From: Waterburya agarophytonicola KI4
GTDB taxonomy: Bacteria; Cyanobacteriota; Cyanobacteriia; Cyanobacteriales; Xenococcaceae
Direction: 5' to 3'
Assembly (NCBI RefSeq): GCF_020640915.1
Contig: NZ_JADWDC010000033.1
Span: forward strand, 1 to 51,633
Length of the DNA: 51,633 nt
The translations under genes and the position numbers were made by a program. The notes under the pieces were generated by a model. The model was not told the origin of the DNA and did no database searches. It saw only the letters and a program-made list of their open reading frames with translations. This document shows positions 20,305 through 50,868 of this stretch, in pieces. How positions within the stretch are numbered: position 1 is the first letter of the stretch; every line of letters begins with the position of its first letter.

Positions 20305-22833
20305 ATGAAAGCTTATAATAAATTCGCTAGATATAATGATTTGGGTTTCAAAAAAGTCAAGAAAAAACTTGGTACTTACACTCTGTCTTTGTTTCTGTTA
20401 ACTATCTTAATCACGACAATCGTCTTGGTTTCTAGATATTTTGGAAGTCTTCAGGTTCTAGAATTACTAGTTTATGATTGGATGGTAAATTTACACAATA
20501 AGAATGAAATAGATTCTAGATTCCTAGTAGTAGAAATTACAGATAAAGATATTCAAAAACAAAATAGTTGGCCAATTTCAGATGAAACTATAGCTCAGGT
20601 ACTTAAGAATCTTCAAAAACACCAACCCAAAGTAATTGGCTTCGATCTTTATCGAGAAGTTCCTTATCCACCAGGAACAAAAGCCCTACAACAAGAATTG
20701 CAACGAGATAATGTAGTTGTAATTCAGTTAATTGGTAACGGAGATAATAGCGTTGCTGCACCTCCTGGGGTAAAAAGAAAGCAAATCGGTTTTAACGATG
20801 TAGTTTTAGATATCGAAGGTGATGTCTTGCGACGTAATTTAATGTACGTCCAATTTGGCGATGGGGAAGACGAACAAATGTCTTCTTTTTCTCTTCAGTT
20901 GAGTCTTAAATATTTAAGAGAGCAAAATCTTCGGTTTCAAGTCGAACGTGATTTTTTGCAGATTGGAAATACAATATTTCCCGATCTAAAGGCAAATTCT
21001 GGCGGTTATCGCTTGGAGTCTTCCGAAACTGCGGGAAAACAAATTTTGATCGATTATCGCTCTCCTAATATTGCTAAAACAGTAACTCTAGGTGAAGTAT
21101 TAGCAGGAAAAGTCGATCCCAATCTAATCAAAGATAAAATCGTCTTGATTGGTACTAGCGCGCCGAGTATCAAAGATATAATTCCTACTCCCTATAGAGG
21201 TTCGCAAACCTTTATGCCTGGGGTGATAGCTCACGCTCAAATGACTAGTCAAATTTTGAGCGTGGTATTAGACGATGCAACCCTGATTTGGTTTTGGTCT
21301 GAGGGGGTTGAAGGTGTCTGGATCTGGGTTTGGTCGTTATTGGGGGTAGCGATCGCCTGGAAACTCAAACATCCTCTTTTGATCGCGATGCTGGGAATAG
21401 TCAGTATCGTTGCTTTATGGAGTATTTGTCTGATTGTTTTTGCCTTTTCAGGCTGGATTCCTTTTGTTCCTGCTGCGATCGCCTTAGCAGCTACTGCTGT
21501 AAGTGTTTTGGGTTATAAGTCTTTGTATAATTTGTTTTATGATTCTTTAACAGGATTGCCCAATCGCACTCTATTTGCCAAGCAACTAAAAGAACTCAAG
21601 CAGAGAAATCGTTTAAAATCCGAAGGCTATATTGCCATTCTCTGTTTGGATTTAGACCGTTTTAAACTGATTAATGATGGTTTGGGATATCAAGCTGGCG
21701 ATCGCATTTTAATCGCCACGGCTCAACGTTTACAAGACAATCTCGATTCTAAGGCTATTTTAGCTAGAGTAGGAGCAGATGAATTTGCGATCGCTTTTAG
21801 AACTAACGAGGATACGGGAGAGGCAATTTCTGTTGCCAATACATTGGATCGAGAATTAGCCATTCCTTTTCAATTAAAGGAACAAGAAGTTTTTACTTCA
21901 GCCAGCATTGGTTTGGCTCTCAATCGTATGAGCGAAGACTTTCAACCAGAAGAGTTATTACAAGCTTCTCATACGGCGATGTATAAAGCTAAGGTATCTG
22001 GCAAAAGTCAACATCAGGTATTTGCCACCAAAATGCACGAACAGGCATTAAAAAGACTACAACTAGAAGCTGACTTAAACCAGGCAATTGCCAATGAAGA
22101 ATTTGAACTTTATTATCAACCCATTATTTCTTTTACTACAGGAAAGATAACTGGTTTTGAAGCTTTAGTACGCTGGATTTCTCCCACACGAGGTTTTATT
22201 TCCCCAGGGGATTTTATTCCTGTTGCGGAAGAAACTGGCTTGATCGTACCGATGGGTAAATGGATTCTCGAAACTGCTTGTCGTCAAATGCAGTCGTGGC
22301 GATCGCAATTTCCCGAAGCGGAACAAGTGACGATGAGCGTCAATCTTTCTAGCAGACAGTTTTCTCAAGCAGATCTAGTGGCTCAGATTCAAGAGACTTT
22401 GATTGTAACCGAACTCGATCCAGCCAATCTTAAATTAGAAATTACCGAAAGTATGGTGATGGATGATGTTGAAAATACGATTATTTTGCTTAATGAGCTG
22501 AAAGAATTGAATATAAAAATTAGCCTGGATGATTTTGGTACGGGGTTTTCATCTTTTAGTTATTTACATCGCTTTCCTACCGATACTTTAAAAATAGATC
22601 GGTCTTTTGTGAGTAATATGAGTCAAGGGTCTAAAAATATCGAAATTGTCAATACTATTGTAATTTTGGCTCACAAATTGGGTATGGATGTGATTGCAGA
22701 AGGAATTGAAACGGTGGAAGAAAAAGAGATTTTGGCAGGTTTTAATTGTGAATATGCTCAGGGCTATTTTTTTGCTAAACCTCTCAAGCAAGATGATGCA
22801 ACAGAATTATTTGTCAACAAAGCTCAATGGTAG
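20305..22833 (+). CDS. CHASE2-GGDEF-EAL membrane protein, c-di-GMP signalling
   Basis: This 842-residue receptor has a first membrane helix (~28-48), an extracytoplasmic CHASE2 sensor (~50-310) and three further helices (~325-400). A GGDEF domain (~405-570) and an EAL domain (~585-835) follow. The diguanylate-cyclase motif is altered to GADEF (490-494), and I see no RxxD inhibitory site before it. The phosphodiesterase half keeps its motifs: EAL (619-621), NLSSRQF, EITESMV, DDFGTGFSS, LKIDRSF, AEGIET and AQGYFFAKPL. I therefore expect net c-di-GMP breakdown, with the GADEF half perhaps regulatory; cyclase activity is not excluded. It leads the plus-strand gene run to 28.1 kb. Confidence 0.92.
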   Translation: MKAYNKFARYNDLGFKKVKKKLGTYTLSLFLLTILITTIVLVSRYFGSLQVLELLVYDWMVNLHNKNEIDSRFLVVEITDKDIQKQNSWPISDETIAQVLKNLQKHQPKVIGFDLYREVPYPPGTKALQQELQRDNVVVIQLIGNGDNSVAAPPGVKRKQIGFNDVVLDIEGDVLRRNLMYVQFGDGEDEQMSSFSLQLSLKYLREQNLRFQVERDFLQIGNTIFPDLKANSGGYRLESSETAGKQILIDYRSPNIAKTVTLGEVLAGKVDPNLIKDKIVLIGTSAPSIKDIIPTPYRGSQTFMPGVIAHAQMTSQILSVVLDDATLIWFWSEGVEGVWIWVWSLLGVAIAWKLKHPLLIAMLGIVSIVALWSICLIVFAFSGWIPFVPAAIALAATAVSVLGYKSLYNLFYDSLTGLPNRTLFAKQLKELKQRNRLKSEGYIAILCLDLDRFKLINDGLGYQAGDRILIATAQRLQDNLDSKAILARVGADEFAIAFRTNEDTGEAISVANTLDRELAIPFQLKEQEVFTSASIGLALNRMSEDFQPEELLQASHTAMYKAKVSGKSQHQVFATKMHEQALKRLQLEADLNQAIANEEFELYYQPIISFTTGKITGFEALVRWISPTRGFISPGDFIPVAEETGLIVPMGKWILETACRQMQSWRSQFPEAEQVTMSVNLSSRQFSQADLVAQIQETLIVTELDPANLKLEITESMVMDDVENTIILLNELKELNIKISLDDFGTGFSSFSYLHRFPTDTLKIDRSFVSNMSQGSKNIEIVNTIVILAHKLGMDVIAEGIETVEEKEILAGFNCEYAQGYFFAKPLKQDDATELFVNKAQW

Positions 22834-22846
22834 TTTTTATTGAACA

Positions 22847-23395
22847 ATGAAGTATAAGTTGTTGTTGAAGCAGGGTTTGATTACTGTAGTTGGGGTTTTG
22901 ATAATTCTGACTAGTGCTGGCTGCCGACAAACTACAGTGGCGCAGTCAGAGATAGATAAGCGATCGCAGATTACTACCATGTATCGGAAATATGCTGAAG
23001 AATTTCCTCAAATAGAAAGTATTACTGTTGAGCAGTTACAACAGTGGCAACAGCAAGGTAAAAATATTATCTTGGTTGATGTGCGAACGCCGAAAGAAAG
23101 AGCTGTTTCAATGATTCCTGGGGCGATCGCTTTGGCAGAATTTGAAGAGAATTTGGAGCAATATAACGACGATAAGGCAATAATTGTTGCTTACTGTACC
23201 ATTGGTTATCGTAGCGGGAAGTATACAAGTAAGTTGAGACAAAAAGGTATAAATATTTTCAACCTGGAGGGGAGTCTCTTAGCTTGGAGTCATATTCAAG
23301 GAAAACTAGTCGATCGCAATGGTTTTACTAATAAAGTTCATGTTTTTGGACATCAGTGGCAACTCACGGCAGATAATTATCAAGCTGTTTGGTAA
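22847..23395 (+). CDS. Rhodanese-domain lipoprotein
   Basis: This 182-residue protein has a lipoprotein signal peptide with lipobox LTSAGC, which would acylate Cys26. A rhodanese domain (about residues 60-150) carries ILVDVRTPKERAVSMIPGAI and the active-site Cys117 in CTIGYRSG. It should face the periplasm attached to a membrane and handle sulfane sulfur or act as a redox-sensitive binding module. The start lies 13 bases after the CHASE2-GGDEF-EAL stop, which argues for one transcript. A link between the two products is inferred from position only. Confidence 0.88.
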   Translation: MKYKLLLKQGLITVVGVLIILTSAGCRQTTVAQSEIDKRSQITTMYRKYAEEFPQIESITVEQLQQWQQQGKNIILVDVRTPKERAVSMIPGAIALAEFEENLEQYNDDKAIIVAYCTIGYRSGKYTSKLRQKGINIFNLEGSLLAWSHIQGKLVDRNGFTNKVHVFGHQWQLTADNYQAVW

Positions 23396-23477
23396 ATATA
23401 AAGTTAGGTAAAACTGAAAATTGGGCAAACTAAGGCTGCGATCTATTGTCCCGATTTTATGAGTATTTATTGTAGTT

Positions 23478-26102
23478 ATGCCTGACAAATTCAGACAACG
23501 TTGCTTGCTATGGTTGGTCTTTATTTTATTAGGGTTATCGATTAGCTTATTTCCCAATCTTTATGGCATCTCCCCAGGGGTAGCTACAGAGATCTCCGTT
23601 AATCGACTAGAAAATACTCTAGACGCTACAGAATTAGAAAAACAAGGCAAATATTATTATTCGATCGCCCAATTCGACCGTGCGATCAACTCTTGGCAAC
23701 AGGCGTATCAAATCTATCTTCAATCTCAAGATATTCTCGGTCAAGGAAGGGTTTTAAGCAATTTGGCTTTGGCTTATAGCCAGTTAAACCATTGGCAACA
23801 GGCAACCCAAAGTATAGCCGATAGCTTAGAGTTGTTAGATCGAGATTCTAGTCTTAGTCCTAGGGATAAAGTCCCTGTATTGGCTCAAGTCTGGAATAAT
23901 CGGGGCATTTTAGAATTTGAACGGGGAGAAATAGAACGAGCGATCGCATCTTGGCAGCGAGCAAAAGTTAATTATCAACTCGTAGCAGACGATCTAGGGG
24001 TAATTCGAGCTTCAATTAATCAAAGCAGTGCATTCAAGGAATTGGGGTTTTATCATCGTGCGGTCAATACTCTAAGGGAAGTAGAACAAGATTTAACCCA
24101 ACAACCAGATTCCTCAATCAAAGCTACGGGATTGAGGAGTTATGGAGATATTTTACGTTTGGTAGGTCAAGTAAAGCGATCGCAAGAAATGTTAACAGAC
24201 AGTCTTGAAATCGTCAAAAATTTGGACGATCCCAGCGAAGAAGTCAAAACTGCGATTGCACTGGGCAATACCTATAAGGCAAGCAATCCTCAAAAAGCTT
24301 TAGAGATTTATCATCGTGGTTTGGCAACTTGTAGTCAAGATGCTGGCTGTCTGGCACAGGATTTATCTCTACAAGTTAATTTGGCAACCATTAATTTATT
24401 GTCGGATAGTCCTCAATGGCAAGACAGTCAAAAGTTAATTACACCTATTCAAGATGAATTTGCTCGTTTGCCGAACAATAGAGCCAATATTGATCGTAAG
24501 GTCAACTTTGCCCATGCTCTAATGAAATTAAATCGTAGATCTGCCCTTAAAAAAACTCACAAAACAAATATTCCCAACCTGTCAGCTATCGATGAGTTAT
24601 TAAAAGAAACCATCGAACAAGCAAAAGCGATCGATTATCAAAAGGCTCAATCCTATAGTTGGGGTTTGCGGGGACAAATTAAGGAAGAATTACAATCTTT
24701 CGACTTGGCGAAGAAGTATACTCAACAGGCTTTGATTTTAGGTCAAAGATTAAATGCACCCGAAATTGTCTACTTGTGGCAATGGCAGCTAGGCAGAATA
24801 AATAAAGCTTTAGGGGAGCTTCCAGAAGCAATAACCCATTATTCCCGTGGGGTGGAGTTATTAAAGTCATTAAGTCAAGATTTGGTCGCCATTGACCCTG
24901 ACGTACAGTATTCTTTTCGCGAAGGAGTCGAGCCTGTTTATCGACAGTTGGTTAGTTTATTATTAACTGCCGAATCTGGAAAAGAGATCCCTCAAGGCAA
25001 TTTAGAAAGGGGTAGAGAAGTAATCGAATCTCTTCAATTAGCAGAATTAAATAATTTCTTTCGAGAGGCTTGTTTGGATGCTCAAGTCGTGAATATAGAT
25101 AGTGTAGACAACCGCGCAGCAGTAATTTATCCGATTATCTTAGGCGATCGCTTAGAAGTAATTTTAAGTTTGCCCGATCGACCCTTACAACACTATGCCA
25201 CCGATATAGATCGAGATAAATTAGAAGCTACAATCGATCAATTCCGTCAAAGTATCGTAGTTCGTAGTCGCCGACATTTTTACGATCCTGCCAAGCAACT
25301 ATACGATTTATTAATTCGTCCTGCATTAAAAGATCTAACTAAAAATAAGATTGAAACTTTAGTCTTTGTTCCCGATGGTTCGTTACGCAATATTCCCTTA
25401 GGTGCTTTATACGATGGTAAGCAATATCTGATTGAAAATTATAATGTCGCTCTAACTCCTGGCTTACAGCTATTAGCACCCCGTCCCATAGAACAAGTAA
25501 AACTAAAAACTATTGCCGTGGGTTTGACTCAAAGCAGACAGGGCTTTTCTGCTTTAGACTTTGTTAACTCGGAGTTAGAACAAATTAACGATACTGTAGA
25601 TAGTGTTATCTTAGTCGATCGCGAATTTACCAGCGAAGCCCTCAAGCAAGAAATCCAACATTCCGACTATCCTATCGTACATATTGCCACTCATGGACAG
25701 TTTAGTTCTTCCATTGAAGATACCTTCTTGTTGGCTTGGGACGATCGCATTGATATCAATCAATTGGATAATATTCTTCAAACCAGAAATCTCAACCAAA
25801 AAAATGCGATCGAGTTATTGGTTTTAAGTGCTTGTGAAACAGCTACGGGCGATAACCGAGCTGCCCTAGGACTTGCTGGAATGGCAGTGCGGGCGGGAGC
25901 GAGAAGCACTTTAGCTACTCTTTGGTCGGTTAACGATCGCGCTACTACCAAATTGATGAGTGATTTTTACCACGAGCTATCAGACAACCATCTAGCTAAA
26001 GCCGATGCCGTGCGTCAAGCTCAACTATCTTTGCTACATAGCCCTGGATACGAACATCCTTTCTACTGGGCTCCTTATGTATTGTTGGGCAATTGGTTAT
26101 AA
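23478..26102 (+). CDS. CHAT-domain protease-like protein with TPR repeats
   Basis: This 874-residue protein starts with a hydrophobic signal or anchor (about residues 9-31). Tetratricopeptide repeats span about 50-480. A C-terminal CHAT domain (about 540-874), a caspase-like clan CD peptidase fold, carries the catalytic dyad His739 (HIATHGQF) and Cys786 (LVLSACETATG). GLAGMAVRAGARSTLATLW and a typical ending also match. Both dyad residues are present, so proteolysis is possible. Targets are unknown. If exported, it would act in the periplasm, unlike cytoplasmic CHAT proteases of the Craspase type. It lies 82 bases after the rhodanese lipoprotein gene. Confidence 0.9.
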   Translation: MPDKFRQRCLLWLVFILLGLSISLFPNLYGISPGVATEISVNRLENTLDATELEKQGKYYYSIAQFDRAINSWQQAYQIYLQSQDILGQGRVLSNLALAYSQLNHWQQATQSIADSLELLDRDSSLSPRDKVPVLAQVWNNRGILEFERGEIERAIASWQRAKVNYQLVADDLGVIRASINQSSAFKELGFYHRAVNTLREVEQDLTQQPDSSIKATGLRSYGDILRLVGQVKRSQEMLTDSLEIVKNLDDPSEEVKTAIALGNTYKASNPQKALEIYHRGLATCSQDAGCLAQDLSLQVNLATINLLSDSPQWQDSQKLITPIQDEFARLPNNRANIDRKVNFAHALMKLNRRSALKKTHKTNIPNLSAIDELLKETIEQAKAIDYQKAQSYSWGLRGQIKEELQSFDLAKKYTQQALILGQRLNAPEIVYLWQWQLGRINKALGELPEAITHYSRGVELLKSLSQDLVAIDPDVQYSFREGVEPVYRQLVSLLLTAESGKEIPQGNLERGREVIESLQLAELNNFFREACLDAQVVNIDSVDNRAAVIYPIILGDRLEVILSLPDRPLQHYATDIDRDKLEATIDQFRQSIVVRSRRHFYDPAKQLYDLLIRPALKDLTKNKIETLVFVPDGSLRNIPLGALYDGKQYLIENYNVALTPGLQLLAPRPIEQVKLKTIAVGLTQSRQGFSALDFVNSELEQINDTVDSVILVDREFTSEALKQEIQHSDYPIVHIATHGQFSSSIEDTFLLAWDDRIDINQLDNILQTRNLNQKNAIELLVLSACETATGDNRAALGLAGMAVRAGARSTLATLWSVNDRATTKLMSDFYHELSDNHLAKADAVRQAQLSLLHSPGYEHPFYWAPYVLLGNWL

Positions 26103-48274: not shown

Positions 48275-50803
48275 TTAAAATCCGACAATAACTTGCCACA
48301 TCCCTACAGCCAAGGTAACAATAGCGAGATGTTGGGGTAGAAGATATTTAACCCGCTGGCGAGCGATTTTTTGAGTCAAGATAATCGATAATAAAACCCC
48401 CACCATCAGAGTTGCACCCTGTAAAAAAGCAATGACCGCAGGATGAGCGATTAATATAGGAAGATTCGCCCCATCTAAACCGAAGGTAGCCATAGTCACG
48501 GGTAGTATTTTACCGCCTTCTCCTAAACCCATACGGAGATAGTGGGATAAGTTACCTGCTAAAACTAGGGGTAAATAGCCGTAAGCTAATTCGATAAATT
48601 GGCGGGGTTTATATTGCTGACTTACTTTTCCGAGAAATGTGATCGCAATATTAGCCACAATTGGAATTAAGATCGGTATACTCAAAGCGATCGCAGATGT
48701 TAAGGCATGATAATTGAAGTTATCTAAATGCAAATCTAAATTCAACTTATTTGATATTTCTGGCAAACGATGGAGAAAGACAACGTTTAATAAGAGAAAC
48801 AATAAAGCTACTTCATAACTGCGGGGAGTATGAGTCGTCCATAGTTCGATCCCAGGTGGGCGTAAGTTAAACTCAACAGATCTATGAGGACAGGCTTTTA
48901 AACAAGTCATGCACAATACGCAATCGCGGTTTTCCGTTAGCTGAGCGGGATGAGAATAGAGGGGACAACCATTGGTCTCTTGTCCTTCTCCCTTGGCTGC
49001 ACCGCCTTTATAACATTGGTAGGTAGTACATTCTGCCGAACAAGTGCCTTGCTGCGCTCGTAATTCTGTCATGGAAAGTTTGGCAAATAAGCCATTCATT
49101 CCTCCAATAGGACATAAATAGCGACACCAAAAACGACGCTCAAAAATAGTCGAGAAAATCATTGCTCCTGCGGTAATTAATAATAGCAAGCAAGCGGAAA
49201 GATAAGCGGTATTTTCTAAATTCCATAATTCTTCCCAAAGGAGAATTAAAGTAAATAAACCAAATAAAAACCAACCTCCCCACTGGTCGGCAGAATTTCT
49301 CGGCCATTTTTTAAGCTGTCGAGGAAATAAGATTAAAGACAGTTTTTGAGTTATTTCGCCATAGATCATAAAAGGACATACCGCACACCACAATCGACCA
49401 ACAAAGGGGAAAGAAATTAGAACAGCGGGCCACCACCAAGCCCAAAATAAATTGAGGGCAAAGTTGGATTCGCGGTTTTGGGGTGCAATAAATAGGACTG
49501 AAACTATGAAAGCAAAAAATATCACCGTAAAGCCATAATTTATTTTATCGGGAAATAGATCGCTACGTAAAAAATAGCGCAACTGGGGATATTTATTGAG
49601 TAGATTTAGGCGATATTGTTTCTTTTTACTTTGACCTTGCCAAACAACTTCTTCGGTAATATCATCGCACCCCTGTAGTTGAGTTAAGGCTCGTTCGACA
49701 ATACTTTCTAATTCTCTTAAATTATTGGGAAAATCATAAGTTTGTAAGTTTCTAATTGCTTCGGGAGTAATGTTAGTTTTGTTGGAGCATTTATTTCTTC
49801 CAATTAGGTTTAAATAATAATTAATTTGCTCGTCTAGATCTGCTTTTCTAACTCTTAATGGGGGAACTTTAATTAAATTTTTAACTACACAATTGATCCC
49901 ATGTATTGTTTGCTCGGAAATTAAAATAATTCTGGCTTGAGATGTTTTTACTTTTGGCGATTCCCCCCCAAGACGCATCACAGGAATATATTCAGACTTT
50001 TGAATTAAATTCGCGATCGCCTTAATCAACTCCTGGGGTAATAAATGAATATTATTTAAAATTAAAGTACCTTGGTCCAAGCTAGCAATCAAACCAGGCT
50101 TACCACCACTACGACCGAATAATTCTGCTCCACTTGTCTGTAATTTGGCACAGTCTACTAGAATAATTGGTTGCCGACGGTATGCCGAACCAAAATGAAT
50201 TAGTGCTGCTAAATTATCCTTTTCTAGACCTGGTTCGCCAAATAACAATACCGATTCTCTGGTTTCTGAAGCTTGTTTGATTTGCGATCGCAATCTAGTT
50301 GCGTAGCGACTTTTCCCGATTACTCCTCGTTTTGCCTTACTAACTAAATAAGGTCTTAATATTATTTGCCTTTCTCGTTCAAATTCTAGTTCATCTGATA
50401 ATTCTTTAACTTCTGTTGCTAATTCTCGGGCAAAAGATTGAGCTATTTCGGGATAACGATTAATTATTTTTCTAAGATCGGAACTATTAACAAACCAAAC
50501 TTTGGTTTCAGTAAGAGTTTTTACGGTATATTCTACTGGTTTCTCTAATAATAAAGCATATAAATTTAATACCGTACCCGAAAGCAAACTACTTTCAACA
50601 AATTGTAATTTGCTATTGCTAGATAACTTTCCTTGATGAATTATATATAAACCATCAGGTTCTTTATCCTCAGTAATAATAACTCGATCTGCTGCAATAG
50701 TTTGTTCCGATAATGCAGATGCGATCGCCTGTAAAACTTCTGTTGATAAATTGCTCAAGCAGGTCTTTTGTTGGAGGAAAGCAACTAAATTCATTTTAAT
50801 CAT
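48275..50803 (-). CDS. cNMP-binding / degenerate AAA+ / polyferredoxin fusion protein
   Basis: This 842-residue protein combines three modules. Residues ~1-135 form a cyclic-nucleotide-binding-like domain (EPDGLYIIHQGKL). Residues ~155-390 resemble the AAA+ domain of sigma-54 activators: a Walker A-like GEPGLEKD (189-196), GTLILNNIHLLP (245-256) where GTLFLDE is expected, PPLRVRKADL, and YDFPNNLRELESIVERAL. The GAFTGA loop is absent and Walker B lacks its Asp-Glu. Residues ~420-842 form a membrane polyferredoxin of NapH/NosR/CcoG type with WCAVCP, WCRYLCP and a classic 4Fe-4S motif (Cys628, 631, 634, 638). I infer membrane electron transfer coupled to a sensor. The target is unknown. Confidence 0.85.
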   Translation of the reverse strand: MIKMNLVAFLQQKTCLSNLSTEVLQAIASALSEQTIAADRVIITEDKEPDGLYIIHQGKLSSNSKLQFVESSLLSGTVLNLYALLLEKPVEYTVKTLTETKVWFVNSSDLRKIINRYPEIAQSFARELATEVKELSDELEFERERQIILRPYLVSKAKRGVIGKSRYATRLRSQIKQASETRESVLLFGEPGLEKDNLAALIHFGSAYRRQPIILVDCAKLQTSGAELFGRSGGKPGLIASLDQGTLILNNIHLLPQELIKAIANLIQKSEYIPVMRLGGESPKVKTSQARIILISEQTIHGINCVVKNLIKVPPLRVRKADLDEQINYYLNLIGRNKCSNKTNITPEAIRNLQTYDFPNNLRELESIVERALTQLQGCDDITEEVVWQGQSKKKQYRLNLLNKYPQLRYFLRSDLFPDKINYGFTVIFFAFIVSVLFIAPQNRESNFALNLFWAWWWPAVLISFPFVGRLWCAVCPFMIYGEITQKLSLILFPRQLKKWPRNSADQWGGWFLFGLFTLILLWEELWNLENTAYLSACLLLLITAGAMIFSTIFERRFWCRYLCPIGGMNGLFAKLSMTELRAQQGTCSAECTTYQCYKGGAAKGEGQETNGCPLYSHPAQLTENRDCVLCMTCLKACPHRSVEFNLRPPGIELWTTHTPRSYEVALLFLLLNVVFLHRLPEISNKLNLDLHLDNFNYHALTSAIALSIPILIPIVANIAITFLGKVSQQYKPRQFIELAYGYLPLVLAGNLSHYLRMGLGEGGKILPVTMATFGLDGANLPILIAHPAVIAFLQGATLMVGVLLSIILTQKIARQRVKYLLPQHLAIVTLAVGMWQVIVGF

Positions 50804-50854: not shown

Positions 50855-50868
50855 GTATACTGTATACT
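50855..50868. promoter_or_regulatory. Tandem GTATACT operator-like motif between divergent genes
   Basis: GTATACT occurs twice head to tail, each unit holding the palindrome GTATAC, in the 126-base spacer between the fusion gene and the GntR-type gene. FadR-subfamily regulators often bind TGTATACA-like palindromes, and NanR binds tandem GGTATA, so an autoregulatory operator is likely but unproven. Confidence 0.45.

Follow-up and report, generated by a model that had tools for sequence, protein, structure and literature searches.

Two groups of described proteins are among the closest to the one reported here. The sigma-54 activators – NtrC1, PspF, NifA and VpsR among them – share with it an AAA+ core and a lid, in family assignment as in fold, and passages of PMC3162934 state that sigma-54 and its activators are absent from 29 cyanobacteria. 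NapH, NosR and RdhC resemble it in having two Cys-Pro motifs in the membrane and, on the cytoplasmic side, a ferredoxin-like region; an excerpt of PMC5928378 ties the module common to NapH and NosR to quinol oxidation and electron transfer. The protein that joins these two kinds of part is encoded in the cyanobacterium Waterburya agarophytonicola KI4, in a stretch of 51,633 nucleotides that is termed the window in what follows.

Architecture and distribution of the fusion

The gene occupies 48275..50803 on the reverse strand (where all its parts given below also lie) and is a single frame of 842 amino acids with an ATG start and no internal stop. It specifies a cNMP-like part, a pseudo-AAA+ core, a lid and a membrane polyferredoxin. 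Every Pfam domain of the window protein exceeds its own gathering score: cNMP_binding at residues 34-117 (50453..50704; E 1.7e-10), Sigma54_activat at residues 162-299 (49907..50320; E 4.9e-14), AAA_lid_14 at residues 317-378 (49670..49855; E 2.4e-10) and Fer4_5 in two stretches (E 8.4e-9). The triple fusion that a first-pass annotation of this DNA had claimed is thus borne out by one intact reading frame.

That the fusion is widely conserved is evident from the class as a whole, where a family member at E up to 1e-60 was found in 170 of 242 sampled genomes and in 89 of 113 genera. We take the spread from this sample because a phylum-wide protein search (146/291 genomes at E<=0.001) mixes in matches to the cNMP-like part or the Fe-S part only. 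A scan of public genomes returned 370 relatives; 80 loci were kept, all with cyanobacterial titles. The closest named relative comes from an uncultured Pleurocapsa (84%), and the genome itself, a 5.1 Mb draft, contains another member of the family, encoded on contig 50, with 39% identity.

The alignment comprises 136 rows: 119 of subfamily A, which include the window protein and also close relatives, such that one species may appear twice; eight of subfamily A', from picocyanobacteria; and nine of subfamily B, to which the contig-50 paralog belongs. Dropped before counting were repeat copies of the window gene or its paralog (L001, L002, L010), a further copy of the window (L009), a locus cut by a contig end (L045), two reading frames each of L142 and L143, and a fragment (L150). 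L151 was aligned solely as a canonical control. A tree of the AAA+ module (31 rows) sets A and A' apart from B and a canonical activator with support of 100/99.

A frameshift, an assembly error or mere chance could also place such parts in one frame, and four relatives (L142, L143, G459 and G503) do consist of two reading frames, while a few matches hold a stop. Separate genes for the two halves would have spoken against a genuine fusion; the break points of these relatives differ from one to the next, which is what frameshifts or assembly errors would produce. Set against the artefact are the 119 aligned A rows, 115 of which have an N-terminal part of cNMP length, and the 170 of 242 genomes. 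Spread and alignment together rule it out, and we give it next to no chance.

The composition of the architecture raises the issue of which parts are essential. The cNMP-like part is absent from 4/119 A rows, from 8/8 A' rows and from 1/9 B rows. Its family score identifies a cNMP-binding fold. The phosphate cassette of cyclic-nucleotide-binding domains has a conserved Glu and a conserved Arg; no such pair is conserved in columns 76-83 and 87-95 of either A or B, Arg peaking at column 92 in 26/119 A rows where the alignment is loose. Canonical cAMP sensing is therefore unlikely, and the idea of a cAMP sensor is not upheld. Since the domain has non-canonical binding residues and is missing from some clades, the AAA+ module and the polyferredoxin are, as judged from sequence, the core of the architecture.

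The altered AAA+ module and the sigma-54 question

The motifs on which ATP turnover depends in activators are changed in the window protein, and they are changed in the manner first described from the bare sequence. Walker A reads GEPGLEKD (residues 189-196; 50216..50239), Walker B reads TLILNNIH (residues 246-253; 50045..50068) with asparagines at 250-251, and the place of the activators' GAFTGA loop, which is absent, is taken by an ELFG segment (residues 227-245; 50069..50125). In subfamily A residues G189, E190, K195 and D196 are invariant (119/119), as is N251, with N250 in 116/119. At position 194, where a normal Walker A has Gly, 101 of these rows have Glu, 12 have Gly, four Gln and two Asp. 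Subfamily A' has GEPGLEKD in 8/8 rows; its residue 250 is either Asp or Ser, and its residue 251 is never acidic. Subfamily B has GKT in 9/9, Asp250 in 7/9 and Asn251 in 9/9. A catalytic Walker B and a GAFTGA loop in relatives would have told against the proposal, and neither was found: among the 136 aligned members, the window's own included, there is no GAFTGA-like motif, no Glu or Asp at position 251 and no DE. The segment corresponding to the arginine fingers of PspF is not kept as such, one position having Arg in 59/119 A rows where the alignment is unsure; the sensor II Arg position is Arg in 51/119 A rows and Lys in another 51.

The first-pass annotation had called this module eroded, a description at odds with the conservation of the altered motifs and with the selection acting upon this part of the protein. 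Median dN/dS within A is 0.10 for the AAA+ module, 0.08 for the membrane half and 0.22 for the cNMP-like part (133 mutually non-independent pairs, window gene excluded). The AF2 model (pLDDT 85.5, pTM 0.61) retains the activator fold, with a TM-score of 0.84, by target length, against NtrC1 (3m0e). Because the altered motifs are conserved and purifying selection is strong, the module is not decaying: it is a conserved pseudo-enzyme, predicted from its sequence to be catalytically dead. Nucleotide may nonetheless be bound, and in B to some extent turned over, given that the Walker A Gly persists in 12/119 A rows and GKT in all B rows.

A separate variant occurs in a single genus (L169, L170, L171), where relatives of 1121 amino acids have a cNMP-like part and two tandem AAA+ copies ahead of the polyferredoxin, GEAGVGKV and LDHLQD being the motifs of the first copy.

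Fold and family scores, together with a best PDB sequence match to VpsR (7v2b, E 9.3e-19), would on their own invite the reading that the protein is a sigma-54-type transcription activator. Unlike such activators, it lacks the GAFTGA loop and the Walker B Glu, each missing from all 136 members; a Pfam scan of the window protein found no DNA-binding domain, and the C-terminal half is a membrane protein to which the AAA+ part is fused. A partner polymerase factor is missing too, as had been supposed: sigma-54 (PF04552) has no match in this genome, and across the phylum it matches 9/291 genomes at E<=0.001 and 2/291 above the curated cut-off, counts that agree with what the cited passages of PMC3162934 report. 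We reject the activator reading on the missing sigma-54, GAFTGA and Walker B Glu, and consider it extremely improbable.

Two observations on sigma-54 elsewhere in the phylum deserve mention. One genome of the class holds a 207-amino-acid frame (L121, G119:C1:411956-412339) resembling the sigma-54 DNA-binding domain (E 2.3e-16), which may be a real gene, a remnant or contamination. A distant genome of the phylum encodes a protein of 653 amino acids with two sigma-54 activator domains (L151:6683-8644), of which at least the first is canonical, with GETGTGKE, GAYTGA and DE.

The membrane polyferredoxin and its relatives

The membrane half (48287..49558) has nine predicted helices within residues 416-839. 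Twelve cysteines – 473, 476, 560, 564, 588, 592, 597, 613, 628, 631, 634 and 638 – are conserved in 136/136 rows; taken as a statement about sequence motifs, the early count of at least four cysteine clusters is correct. Four of the cysteines form two membrane Cys-Pro motifs, C473xxC476P (CxxCP, residues 473-477; 49373..49387) and C560xxxC564P (CxxxCP, residues 560-565; 49109..49126), whose prolines are invariant or nearly so (68 rows). The other eight lie in a ferredoxin-like region (residues 588-639; 48887..49042) that reads, from its sequence, as one regular CxxCxxCxxxCP and one irregular four-Cys set. The AF2 helices and the charge of the loops place this Fe-S region in the cytoplasm, on the same side as the AAA+ module. 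Y741, E762 and Q795 are invariant in the last helices (136 rows). Modelled alone, the membrane half gives a confident fold (pLDDT 84.7, pTM 0.85) with the exception of the Fe-S region (residues 191-235 of the modelled piece), where pLDDT falls below 50.

Similarity to the NapH group is real, yet partial. The NCBIfam NapH/MauN subfamily matches residues 467-646 (E 2e-13), reaching 50.5 bits of a cut-off of 213.05. Whereas NapH, NosR and RdhC have CX3CP, the first motif of the window protein is CxxCP and its second Fe-S motif is irregular; it has, moreover, five extra helices past the Fe-S region and an AAA+ module in front. A profile search of the PDB (E<=0.01) found nothing related to the membrane half, and Foldseek gave no convincing match (best E 0.8). 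Quinone binding is for this reason a guess, and it may be that neither the membrane fold nor this path for electrons in oxygenic phototrophs has been described before.

Outside the cyanobacteria the membrane half has relatives that stand alone. Proteins named '4Fe-4S binding protein', encoded on plasmids of Deinococcus ficus and of haloarchaea, match residues 394-832 or parts thereof, with 31% identity for Deinococcus (E 5e-41) and 22-25% for the haloarchaea. They have neither the cNMP-like nor the AAA+ part, and the Deinococcus protein has, by eye, a cysteine pattern like that of the window protein; their occurrence indicates that the membrane half can exist without AAA+. The Deinococcus protein is in turn about 30% identical, over some 210 residues, to a Rhizobium protein (L165) that we take to resemble FtrD, the 4Fe-4S protein of FTR1 iron operons. 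This FtrD-like protein is related to the window protein only indirectly, through Deinococcus, and has no AAA+ module. FtrD is assigned to no known redox family in the portion of PMC11966278 consulted.

The open-access literature searched yielded no paper on this family. The parts are of known kinds; for the combination, the pseudo-AAA+ and the membrane fold no description was found there, and the family seems to be a type of regulated redox protein that has yet to be described. About 70% of the class's sampled genomes carry it, under strong purifying selection. As an example of a transcription-activator motor retained without its sigma factor, by sequence without catalysis, and joined to redox machinery, it would be clear-cut.

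Genomic neighbourhoods and the proposed role

The surroundings of the window gene say little about subfamily A at large. recG lies tail to tail with it, nine bases away, and a GntR/FCD regulator lies head to head across a gap of 126 bases. Neither gene is a conserved neighbour: near other A genes recG has one weak match (L020) and the GntR gene one, 8.8 kb away in L077. No neighbour is common to more than 12 of the 80 A loci; zur is near none and znuA/B near one. The cysK-like genes 3-7 kb from four A loci we read as background, and none of the neighbourhoods examined connects the protein with nitrogen metabolism or respiration.

Regulatory boxes were equally uninformative. With a 15-base palindrome that we take to be the cyanobacterial Zur box, the 126-base gap upstream of the window gene has no match within three mismatches; upstream of A there is none with <=2 mismatches and 50/125 with 3-4, slightly above the 163/625 mononucleotide shuffles with <=4 mismatches, an unconvincing excess; and upstream of A' the count is 0/9 with <=4. 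Zur regulation is set aside on these counts. NtcA boxes occur upstream of A in 5/125 cases, against a shuffle mean of 10.2.

The sister subfamilies are more telling. For A' there are 34 distinct picocyanobacterial loci, a non-random draw in which 30 are the nearest matches of 75 positive genomes with 1.5 kb flanks. In eight of the 34, all from one genus, an SDR gene, A' and zur follow one another on one strand, A' directly before zur; A' is broken in one of the eight (L143), and the zur of L137 is closest to the solved SynZur (7ne9, E 9e-66). In two loci of a second genus A' adjoins znuB and znuC, with zur farther away. Because the two genera are sisters in trees, the zinc linkage may count as a single event. 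At the other 24 loci a glutathione S-transferase gene is head to head with A' in 16 and a GGCT-like gene, so named by eye, tail to tail in 11. Transcription of zur in Synechococcus WH8102 is zinc-independent according to passages of PMC9337993, which name no Fe-S gene among the genes found; as far as those passages go, the result is neutral, neither for nor against a zinc role.

Subfamily B adjoins cysK in 8/12 loci (6/10 genome loci, 2/2 plasmids), and some B loci also have SQR-like, ArsR, rhodanese, DsrE, extra petC or psbA genes. Around the paralog on contig 50 (L008, 1-14000) there is an island of sulfide-type genes: an SQR-like flavoprotein, a persulfide-dioxygenase-like gene, two ArsR genes, cysK and an extra petC, several of them named by eye. 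In Pseudanabaena galeata and Aulosira laxa (L162, L163) the B genes are plasmid-borne and lie near cysK, an extra petC and a psbA; together these make up a movable island for photosynthesis of the sulfide type.

What the neighbours of A' and B have in common is thiol, sulfide and zinc-thiol chemistry. We can only infer this theme for A by analogy, borrowing it from the sister groups because A has no widely shared neighbour, no zur nearby and znuA/B at a single locus.

What, then, might the protein do? The reading that fits best is a redox protein bearing a scaffold or sensor; quite probably the protein is of this kind, with its dead AAA+ module as the one or the other. Stated in full – a membrane Fe-S electron-transfer protein, with the dead AAA+ as a ligand-sensing or oligomerising scaffold, acting in the field above – the proposal has a little less than even odds, and the thiol, sulfur and zinc field by itself is a tentative assignment. 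The protein would belong to a cyanobacterial NapH/NosR-like kind of polyferredoxin engaged in membrane electron transfer, with the pseudo-ATPase as its cytoplasmic front end. Electrons would pass between quinone or ferredoxin and a partner, using the membrane cysteines and [4Fe-4S] clusters of the ferredoxin type. With no turnover of ATP, the AAA+ part would bind a ligand or pack into oligomers, and might so control the coupling of the relay to its partner, in the service of thiol, sulfur and metal redox balance. That the AAA+ part truly gates electron flow, as first suggested, is rather unlikely, and the more specific version, in which GEPGxxKD binds the ligand and quinone or ferredoxin electrons are gated to thiol, sulfide or zinc-thiol chemistry, is more doubtful again.

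Two other roles have to be weighed. Instead, the Fe-S part could sense the state of quinones or thiols, with the AAA+ part relaying the signal to a soluble regulator that it might, for instance, tether to the membrane. A membrane redox sensor of this sort would make sense of zur beside A' in the eight picocyanobacterial loci, of ArsR beside B (L008, L163) and within about 4 kb of 6/119 A loci, and of a protein with no DNA-binding domain found of its own, but no regulator is conserved beside A; we hold it to be unlikely, if plausible. Alternatively, the polyferredoxin might reduce metal or cysteine ligands to help a partner mature or carry out transport, a role already put forward for other proteins in the wider group of polyferredoxins. 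Such an assembly or metal-handling factor would fit znuBC beside A' in the two loci, CbiMNQO near two A loci, the metal transporter and P-type ATPases near the Natronorubrum relative, the nickel-type ABC genes near that of Natrinema pallidum, and the FTR1/cupredoxin/iron-transporter operon around the Rhizobium relative of the Deinococcus protein. These cases are few and scattered, however, most A loci show none, and the plasmid relatives are a biased sample, all of which leaves this role fairly improbable. We retain the reading of a redox protein with a scaffold or sensor. A part in defence was also considered and set aside, PADLOC having given only AAA+ (RtcR-type) and cNMP/TIR-type matches.

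Two further features of the window may be recorded. The 126-base gap to the divergent GntR/FCD gene contains a short perfect palindrome, GTATACAGTATAC, at 50855-50867, which is perhaps that regulator's own site. At 20305-26102 the window encodes a CHASE2-GGDEF-EAL protein and, after it, a TPR-CHAT protein.
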